Source of the DNA: Flavobacteriia bacterium | GTDB lineage: Bacteria; Bacteroidota; Bacteroidia; Flavobacteriales_D; Crocinitomicaceae | Length of the DNA: 64,000 nt | Direction: 5' to 3' | Assembly (NCBI GenBank): GCA_947450325.1 | Contig: CANFUT010000001.1 | Span: forward strand, 124,001-188,000 | Shown: positions 33,668-48,262 of the stretch, one piece after another | How positions within the stretch are numbered: the stretch's first letter is position 1 | How the letters are laid out: each line of letters begins with the position of its first letter | The notes under the pieces: model-generated | Seen by the model: the letters and a program-made list of their open reading frames with translations, nothing else | Databases searched by the model: none | What the model was told of the DNA's origin: nothing | Program-made: the position numbers and the translations under genes

Positions 33668-34734
33668 TGGAATTGTCTGTTTATTTAAAAGAAGGAAGAA
33701 TTAGTAAGGAATGGAGTTTACGTAAATTAAGTACAGAAACTTCCATTGACTCTTCTTTGCTCAATAAATTTGAAAAGGGCGATAGAATTCCTACGAAGCC
33801 ACAAATAAATCGATTACTCGAAGTTTTAGAATTGGATAAAAAACAAACCCTTACGCTTTGGTTGGGAGAAAAAATTTATCGCATAATTGAGCATGAGGAA
33901 TTTTATGCAGAATCTATGAAGGTTGCAGACAACAAAATTTCTTACGGTTTATCGAAAGCAGAAAAACTTCAGAATGAATTGCCTGAAAACATTCAAACAT
34001 TGCTTTTAGCGTGTGACTTATTGAAAGAAGAATGGATCAAATTGAAACCACTCAAAGGAATACAACTTCAAAAAATGAACGAGTATTTTCGTTTAAATTA
34101 TACGTATGAAAGTAACCGAATAGAAGGTAACACATTGACTTTGCAAGAAACACATTTGGTCATCAATGAAGGATTAACGATTGGAGGGAAATCGATGCGA
34201 GAGCACTTGGAGGTTGTAAATCACTCAGAGGCAATTGAATATATTTCTGAAATTGTTCAAAATAAAGTTGATTTTAACGAGCGTATTTTAAAACAAATTC
34301 ACTACCTAATTTTAAAAGGAATTGACAGAGAAAATGCAGGAGTATATAGGTCAATTAGCGTAAGAATTTCGGGAAGTTCACATTTGCCTCCAGAGCCATT
34401 TCTTCTAAACCGGATGATGGAAGAAGTATTTGAATACTATCAAAAAAATAAAAACTTACTTCATCCTATCATTTTAGCAGCTGAAATGCACGAACAAATT
34501 GTACGAATTCATCCCTTTATTGATGGCAATGGTCGAACAACCAGACTTATTATGAACTTGATTTTGATACAACATGGTTTTCCAATTGCAAATATCAAAG
34601 GAGATTTAAATTCACGTTTGGCATACTATCAAGCACTTGAAAACGCACCTAAAGAAGATAAAGCATCATTTTACGAATTGGTTGCCCAAACCGTTCGAGT
34701 TGCGCTCAACGAACACATTGAGCTAAGTAGATAA
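33667..34734 (+). CDS. Fic-family protein with N-terminal XRE-type HTH domain
   Basis: A 355-residue fusion. Residues about 1-60 form an XRE/Cro-like helix-turn-helix (EWSLRKLSTETSIDSSLLNK). Residues about 135-350 form a Fic domain with a complete active site HPFIDGNGRTTR (H282 onward), so AMP transfer or a related nucleotidylylation is possible. The motif SNRIEG (149-154) before the Fic core fits the class II inhibitory (S/T)xxxE(G/N) helix that keeps the enzyme off. I choose the ATG at 33667. Fic genes are often acquired horizontally and act as toxins or regulators; no antitoxin gene is next to it, consistent with built-in inhibition. Confidence 0.9.
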   Translation: MELSVYLKEGRISKEWSLRKLSTETSIDSSLLNKFEKGDRIPTKPQINRLLEVLELDKKQTLTLWLGEKIYRIIEHEEFYAESMKVADNKISYGLSKAEKLQNELPENIQTLLLACDLLKEEWIKLKPLKGIQLQKMNEYFRLNYTYESNRIEGNTLTLQETHLVINEGLTIGGKSMREHLEVVNHSEAIEYISEIVQNKVDFNERILKQIHYLILKGIDRENAGVYRSISVRISGSSHLPPEPFLLNRMMEEVFEYYQKNKNLLHPIILAAEMHEQIVRIHPFIDGNGRTTRLIMNLILIQHGFPIANIKGDLNSRLAYYQALENAPKEDKASFYELVAQTVRVALNEHIELSR

Positions 34735-46407: not shown

Positions 46408-47301
46408 GTGAAAAATATTGTCTTTTTTATATTGTTGTTTCCTTTCTGTGGAAAATCACAGTTCCTCGATAATTCGAAAGGAAATGCTTTTTCTGAGATT
46501 CCATTTTTTAATGAAAAATTTGTAAAAAACAACAAAATTAAAAGTTTAAAGGGAACTTATACTTTCAAAAAAATGGGCGATATCATGAGAGAAACTGATT
46601 ATGTTTTTCAATATGATTTTGATAATAAAGGCCACTTAATTCAATCTTTTGAAACCAATAACGAAAGTCGCAAGATTGATACAACACTGCTTCTTTACAG
46701 CTATTACAAAGATGGAAATTTGGCATTTGTAAGAAGAAAAGACAATATTGGATATTACTCTACACATTATTTTTATGATTCAATAAATCGCGTTATTAAG
46801 GAAGAATACAAACGTGATATCGACACAGCAGGAACTTTTTTTGTCCCTAGTTTTGAAAGAAGCATGTTGCTAAATTTTGAAACAATCAAATATGAAAAGA
46901 CTGGGGTTTTTGAAAAATCTACCGTTCACAACAGCTATGGACTGCCTTTCAAAGAAATTATTTCTACGCATGATTCAACTGGATACCTAATTTCAAAAGA
47001 AGAAAAACTAAAATTTGGCAATCAAAGAACAATAACTCAATTTGAGTACAATGAAAATGGATGGATTTCAAATATCAAAATAACCAATTCTAATAATTCT
47101 AAGTTAAATCAAGAATTGCGTTTCAAATATGACGAATTTGGAAATTTAAGCGAGAAACACATCTATAAAAACAATCAGTTTATTACGGACATTCAAGTGA
47201 TTTATAATTTAAAAACAGGACTTATCTCGTCAATCTTGACTAGAGATGTTGCTACCAACTTTATTTCAATTTTGAGATTTGAAGTTGTAAAATTCTATTA
47301 A
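46408..47301 (+). CDS. Secreted YD/RHS-repeat-like protein
   Basis: A 297-residue protein with a signal peptide (about 1-17) starting from GTG at 46408. It contains several degenerate YD/RHS-like repeats: FDNKGHLIQSFE, YYKDGNLAFVRRK, YDSINRVIKEEY, YNENGWISNIKI and YDEFGNLSEKHIY. It lacks the long repeat array and toxin tip of true RHS proteins, so a small secreted beta protein of unknown role is the best description. A strong bidirectional terminator follows. Confidence 0.75.
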   Translation: MKNIVFFILLFPFCGKSQFLDNSKGNAFSEIPFFNEKFVKNNKIKSLKGTYTFKKMGDIMRETDYVFQYDFDNKGHLIQSFETNNESRKIDTTLLLYSYYKDGNLAFVRRKDNIGYYSTHYFYDSINRVIKEEYKRDIDTAGTFFVPSFERSMLLNFETIKYEKTGVFEKSTVHNSYGLPFKEIISTHDSTGYLISKEEKLKFGNQRTITQFEYNENGWISNIKITNSNNSKLNQELRFKYDEFGNLSEKHIYKNNQFITDIQVIYNLKTGLISSILTRDVATNFISILRFEVVKFY

Positions 47302-47330
47302 ATAAAAAAATCAAATCTTTTTTAAACTAA

Positions 47331-47360
47331 AAATGCCCTAGAGGTAAGCCTAGGGCATTT
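47331..47360. terminator. Bidirectional terminator
   Basis: A perfect 11-bp inverted repeat (AAATGCCCTAG at 47331-47341, CTAGGGCATTT at 47350-47360) with an 8-base loop. It can end the rightward gene at 47301. On the minus strand the stem runs into a T-rich stretch and would end a leftward transcript. Confidence 0.85.
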
Positions 47361-47417
47361 ATTCCACAATATTCATCAGTAGTATTTAATCTTCTTGTGG
47401 TTTTAATTTCTTTACGA
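47331..47417 (-). ncRNA. Candidate small RNA
   Basis: A minus-strand promoter (TTG, 20-base spacer, TATATTTG at 47421-47428) points at the strong terminator hairpin only about 60-80 bases downstream. The predicted transcript of about 85 nt has no credible open frame. A second, weak hairpin is possible near its 5' end (CCACAA / TTGTGG, arms 47395-47400 and 47364-47369). This fits a small RNA gene. It matches no RNA family I recognise. Confidence 0.45.
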
Positions 47418-47420
47418 GGT

Positions 47421-47451
47421 CAAATATATAGTTGAAAACCAGTTTGTGCAA
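47421..47451 (-). promoter_or_regulatory. Promoter of the candidate small RNA
   Basis: On the minus strand TTG (47451-47449), a 20-base spacer and TATATTTG (47428-47421) match the Bacteroidota promoter consensus at proper spacing. No protein gene lies downstream before the terminator. Confidence 0.5.
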
Positions 47452-47545
47452 CTTATGTTACAGGACAACTGTTGGACATAGAAATTAAAAAACCAGAAAA
47501 AAAATTAAACCATTGATTTGCAAATACTTAATGACAAATATAAGT

Positions 47546-48262
47546 TTACGCCAACTGTAGTAAATATCTTTGAATTGTATTTTCTAACCCAAAATATAGC
47601 GCATCAGAAATTAATGCATGACCAATTGAAACTTCTGCAAGTTGTGGGATATTTTCTTTAAAAAATTTCAAATTTTCTAAACTCAAATCGTGTCCAGCGT
47701 TTACTTCCAAACCTAGTGAGGTTGCTAAATTTGCAGCATCGATATATGAACTTATTGATTTCTCCGCATCAATTGGAAATTCCTCGGCAAATGGTCCTGT
47801 ATATAATTCGATTCTATCCACGCCCGTTTTAGCTGCATATTCAATATTGACTAATTCGGTGTCAACAAAAATAGATGTTCGAACTCCGTGAGATTTAATT
47901 TCTGCAATCAAATTGGTCAACCATTCTAAATTGGCTTTGGTATCCCACCCAGCGTTAGATGTCAAAACGTGCGGCGGATCTGGAACTAAAGTTGCCTGTG
48001 CGGGTTTCAACTCTGCAATCATTTGCATAAATCTTTCATCTGGATAACCTTCGATGTTTAATTCAGTTTTTACAACTTTATGTAAATCATAAACATCTTT
48101 TGTCGTAATGTGTCTTTCGTCTGGTCTCGGATGAATTGTAATTCCATGAGCCCCAAATCGTTCACAATCAATTGCTACTTGAACTACATTCGGCGTATTT
48201 CCACCACGCGCATTTCTTATCGTTGCAATCTTATTGATATTGACACTTAATTTAGTCTCCAT
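47546..48262 (-). CDS. pdxJ: Pyridoxine 5'-phosphate synthase
   Basis: A 238-residue TIM-barrel enzyme with [17 protein letters not shown] at the start, then [28 protein letters not shown] and [11 protein letters not shown]. It condenses 1-deoxy-xylulose 5-phosphate with 3-amino-2-oxopropyl phosphate to form PNP, a vitamin B6 precursor. It is a single gene. A -7-like box (TATATTTG, 48303-48310, minus) lies 41 bases upstream of the start. Confidence 0.95.

Follow-up and report, generated by a model that had tools for sequence, protein, structure and literature searches.

Within the window (the whole 64,000-nt stretch of DNA that was analysed), a predicted small RNA (sRNA) gene lies on the minus strand between pdxJ and a convergent gene encoding a 297-aa protein (Table 1). 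The initial annotation had proposed a promoter, a terminator and a second hairpin at this place, and we found each of them: the TTG, the 20-base spacer and the TATATTTG box are all present on the minus strand, a perfect 11-bp hairpin (AAATGCCCTAG-GCTTACCT-CTAGGGCATTT) is followed by a T-rich tail (TTAGTTT), and the CCACAA/TTGTGG arms are present and can pair in all four species that carry the unit. The gene is downstream of pdxJ, as had been noted, with 94 bases between the end of pdxJ and the TTG. Since the sigma-A box of Flavobacterium psychrophilum was mapped at -12 to -5 (PMC9723704), we predict that transcription would start at 47416. Below, copy a denotes the window unit, G000 the window genome, and G001 to G004 the other species of the same genus.

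Table 1. Features of the predicted sRNA gene and its neighbours (window coordinates).
Feature	Position	Strand	Remarks
Convergent neighbour, 297-aa protein	46408..47301	plus	weak RHS-repeat match
Predicted sRNA, about 91 nt	47326..47416	minus	start from sigma-A box position, end from terminator
Intrinsic terminator hairpin	47331..47360	minus	U-tail to about 47324; terminator scan and folding
Hairpin 1, CCACAA/TTGTGG, 25-nt loop region	47364..47400	minus	arms 47400-47395 and 47369-47364; pairs in 4/4 species
Invariant loop UACUACUGAUGA, candidate seed	47373..47384	minus	identical in all four copy-a homologues
-7 box TATATTTG	47421..47428	minus	TAnnTTTG retained at this position in G004 and G002
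-33 element TTG	47449..47451	minus	spacer to -7 box 20 nt in G000 and G004, 21 nt in G002
Direct repeat TGTCC-N6-TGTCC, possible activator site	47463..47478	minus	11-bp period; position kept in three species
pdxJ, upstream neighbour	47546..48262	minus	Pfam PF03740 (PdxJ), E 8.9e-90

Neither the promoter match nor the terminator match is evidence by itself, since both occur at chance level in the window: the pattern TTG-N19-21-TAnnTTTG is found 13 times compared to a shuffle mean of 8.3, as the initial annotation had cautioned that such a motif arises by chance, and there are 4 terminator-like sites with 4.3 expected. The 101-nt sRNA region folds better than 200 of 200 dinucleotide shuffles (z -3.8), and the copy-a homologues and a second copy, described below, also fold well (z -3.6 to -7.3).

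We compared the regions downstream of pdxJ across 29 relatives, and found the sRNA unit between pdxJ and the convergent gene in three of the other four congeneric species (G004, G001 and G002). Thus, the unit is strongly conserved in sister species, and is not absent from close relatives, the outcome that had been named as counting against it. It is missing downstream of pdxJ in G003, where pdxJ is still followed by sequence similar to the convergent gene's end; because G003 lacks the RNA, the sRNA is evidently dispensable in that species. Identity of the 76-nt core to the window was 100% in G004, 92% in G001 and, over the alignable columns, 75% in G002, compared to 58%, 41% and 29%, respectively, at the four-fold sites of the adjacent pdxJ, our neutral yardstick (the pdxJ of G001 is 87% identical to that of the window). 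The stretch from pdxJ to the promoter aligned little better than shuffled sequence, and the hairpin, the loop UACUACUGAUGA and the terminator were retained where the flanks no longer align, with hairpin 1 and its loop conserved to about the same degree as the terminator. Even the diverged G002 retains TAnnTTTG, a TTG at 21 nt and the loop (UUUACUACUGAUGA), with a closing stem of hairpin 1 that is one G-U pair longer and a shortened terminator loop. The distance of TAnnTTTG from the loop is likewise kept (-46, -46 and -47 in G000, G004 and G002); in G001 the box is degenerate (CACATTTA). Conservation above that of the pdxJ four-fold sites lifts the unit far above chance and, together with its recurrence at the same locus, supports the original proposal of a small RNA gene. 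As judged by this comparison, the pattern is that of a noncoding RNA gene kept functional by selection, and we consider it very likely that the window locus specifies a functional noncoding RNA.

Upstream of the promoter, the second TGTCC of the direct repeat begins exactly 39 nt before TAnnTTTG in G000, G004 and G002; the repeat is missing at the sRNA locus of G001. With the two halves spaced by about one turn of the helix, the arrangement would be compatible with an activator that binds direct repeats. We rejected TGTCC-N6-TGTCC as a regulator site used genome-wide, other copies lying mostly in coding sequence and defining no clear regulon.

A probable second copy was found elsewhere in two of these genomes. 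In G000 it lies at C25:24234-24315 on the minus strand, where a covariance search (E 1.6e-4) agrees with a search for exact matches to the loop complement, and in G004 the covariance search places it at C14:24576-24664 (E 1.6e-3). Its structure is GAATCAA-AACTACTGATGAATG-TTGATTC with a terminator immediately after, and its loop (AACUACUGAUGAAUG in G000, UACUGCUGAUGAAUG in G004) differs in each case by one change from that of copy a. Stem 1 is wholly different, GAATCAA/TTGATTC compared to CCACAA/TTGTGG in copy a, and pairing is kept in both. With a random core, 1.5% of positions have a 7-bp closing stem, and the combination of stem, loop, adjacent terminator and conservation makes it unlikely that the second copy arose by chance. 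We conclude that this locus is probably a copy of the window sRNA gene, homology as opposed to convergence being not proven. In G000, some two dozen bases separate it from a fasciclin gene upstream, so close that this copy may be part of a 3′ UTR; in G004, the upstream neighbour is a DUF6671 gene, and a fasciclin gene was not seen beside it.

The initial annotation had also suggested looking for compensatory changes in the hairpins, and here the outcome was divided. Copy a displayed wobble changes only (for instance, G-C to G-U), and with four homologues covariation is necessarily thin; the second-copy terminator stem, in contrast, shows two compensatory pairs and one G-U to A-U change between G000 and G004. 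In a family-wide covariance search (model R1, 240 genomes), the matches inspected outside the genus were terminators, tRNA ends or chance sequence. When contigs were scanned for the loop followed by TGTGG, a pattern that proved too loose, a terminator adjoined the motif, among the matches listed, only at L148 (a G001 contig); also among these, L124 had a hairpin about 40 nt on, and the others look like chance. We conclude that the predicted sRNA gene is previously undescribed and genus-restricted.

Sequences related to the loop were noted at several other places. TTCATACTACTACTGATGATGAAC occurs immediately past the terminator of a D-Ala-D-Ala dipeptidase-like (EWWHF) gene and is conserved in two species (L241, G000:C24:30679-30689; L240, G001:C6:114596-114606); these sites carry the sRNA loop on a 5-bp stem, with no terminator of their own seen. 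At L238 (G002:C204:11804-11819), TACTACTG-ATG opens a reading frame slightly downstream of a TATATTTG box, and the site shares ACTACTGATGAATATT with the window sRNA. In another genus, L275 (G109:C48:3590-3605) is a ACTACTGATGAAT inverted repeat around a short centre, in apparently intergenic DNA.

We considered what else could account for a conserved unit at this place. The unit is on the pdxJ strand and always directly downstream of pdxJ, and the scan reported no terminator nearer pdxJ on the minus strand, as one might expect if the RNA were a processed 3′ end of the pdxJ mRNA, a pdxJ 3′ UTR-derived sRNA in place of an independent gene. We think this unlikely, given that the box and the TTG are kept at the right distance in three species amid diverged DNA, and that there is a probable second copy elsewhere in the genome. 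That only the terminator matters, perhaps bidirectionally between pdxJ and the 297-aa gene, with the remainder incidental, would fit the convergent neighbours and the use of similar ATGCCCTAG..CTAGGGCAT hairpins as terminators elsewhere in the family; this idea is largely refuted by the comparable conservation of hairpin 1 and its loop, and is made very improbable also by the conserved promoter and by a T-run that follows the hairpin on the minus strand only, with none on the plus strand.

A coding function is likewise very improbable. Apart from a five-codon AUG frame, no conserved reading frame was found in the four species, in agreement with the earlier view that the transcript has no credible ORF: in the comparison, all frames longer than five codons differ or carry stops. 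A 22-codon TTG frame overlapping the promoter (47451 onwards) was rejected; it is open in G000 and G004, broken in G001, and starts upstream of the predicted RNA. The five-codon frame (47378-47361) is present in all four species and runs from an AUG in the loop to a stop whose distance is kept despite different stop codons (UAA, UAG and UGA) and an intervening indel in G002, which might point to a tiny peptide (MNIVE, MSFVE or MMTMW). However, the peptide would have only five residues, these are not conserved in G002, the AUG is inside the hairpin, and by our estimate a stop would fall there in G002 with a chance of roughly 5%. It is also possible, although improbable, that the hairpin is bound by an RNA-binding protein (serving as a sponge or 3′-end stabiliser), such that the loop is read by protein and not by pairing. 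This would explain a loop that is kept on changing stems, at two loci and always beside a terminator, and no mRNA 5′ UTR target was found; on the other hand, no candidate protein is known, and the existence of a perfect complement, within a 3′ UTR that is itself conserved, favours pairing.

We therefore favour an independent regulatory sRNA gene (about 90 nt) that acts by pairing through its loop, which we hold to be reasonably probable. From the computed presence, structure, conservation relative to the neutral yardstick and lack of a conserved ORF, we infer transcription, pairing in trans and a partner as follows. RNA polymerase would start at the Bacteroidota-type promoter and stop at the intrinsic terminator, and the RNA would fold into two hairpins, the first presenting the invariant UACUACUGAUGA in a large loop and the second being that of the terminator. 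That the loop stays invariant while the stem varies suggests that the loop does the work, and most likely it would act in trans, as a seed for pairing with other RNAs. One candidate partner would be a DUF465-gene 3′ UTR, in which CAUCAGUAGUA is present.

This candidate came from listing every 10-mer occurrence of ACTACTGATG across five genomes, in which one complementary site, GCATCAGTAGTA in the 3′ UTR of the 76-aa DUF465 gene, was kept in three species. These are the three species in which both the DUF465 gene and the sRNA were found (G000, G004 and G001), and GCATCAGTAGTA is invariant in all of them. The site is a perfect 11-nt complement to the sRNA loop (-14.3 kcal/mol as an isolated duplex) and is flanked by a conserved ACCTTG...CAAGGT hairpin on one side and a terminator on the other. 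G003 lacks the DUF465 gene as well as the sRNA; the DUF465 homologue of G005, which belongs to another genus, does not have the site, and no sRNA was found in that genome; in G002, a 73% complete genome, there was no match to the DUF465 gene. Counting this site, the genome has about three non-family 10-mer matches, about the chance number according to reversed-pattern controls, and the 3′ UTR is conserved along its whole length. Full-length duplex energies were lower than the mean of the shuffles by about 2 sd in both G000 and G001, and in G004 the difference was less than 1 sd, so that duplex scores against this 3′ UTR display no clear advantage over shuffles. As a candidate pairing partner of the sRNA loop, the DUF465 3′ UTR is suggestive only. 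That the two sRNAs (with one loop and unrelated stems and terminators) and the structured 3′ UTR form a regulatory pair, of an sRNA with a sponge or a 3′ UTR target, is a tentative idea that we regard as doubtful.

We also note that the DUF465 3′ UTR (L304, L305 and L306; G000:C10 about 33905-34040, G004:C6 and G001:C9) is a conserved structured element, made up of that hairpin, the linear CATCAGTAGTA, and a terminator with a changed yet paired stem. It has no Rfam match, and no tRNA or tmRNA was found there.

The regulatory RNAs of the little-studied Flavobacteriales are almost unmapped. With its defined loop, its probable second copy and a candidate partner, this conserved sRNA offers a concrete starting point. 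Moreover, a Bacteroidota promoter and a terminator, when tested against neutral divergence, can single out sRNA genes from sequence alone.

The loop contains CUGAUGA, the hammerhead core heptamer. A hammerhead ribozyme, which would also need a stem II, GAAA and a third helix with a cleavage site, was rejected: no GAAA follows a stem II in copy a or in the second copy, and there was no Rfam hammerhead match even at E 10. With Rfam 15, the window had no match at the gathering threshold (best sub-threshold score 23.2 of 43 bits), and gathering and permissive thresholds alike yielded no family for the sRNA or the second copy. Three Bacteroides sRNAs, GibS (RF04182; 16.9 of 115 bits gathering, on the second copy), rteR (RF04181; 16.5 of 72 bits) and BTnc049 (RF04179; 20.9 of 81.9 bits, other strand), resemble the window sRNA in being small RNAs of Bacteroidota, but these scores are so far below gathering that neither the window sRNA nor the second copy is a member of those families. 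In F. psychrophilum, also of the Flavobacteriales, intergenic sRNAs including Rfp18 are independent noncoding transcripts, and the sigma-A promoter is TAnnTTTG (PMC9723704). Whereas Rfp18 is a known transcript and the window sRNA a prediction, the two are alike by description, Rfp18 being conserved within its genus and having a proposed pairing stem-loop (PMC9723704).
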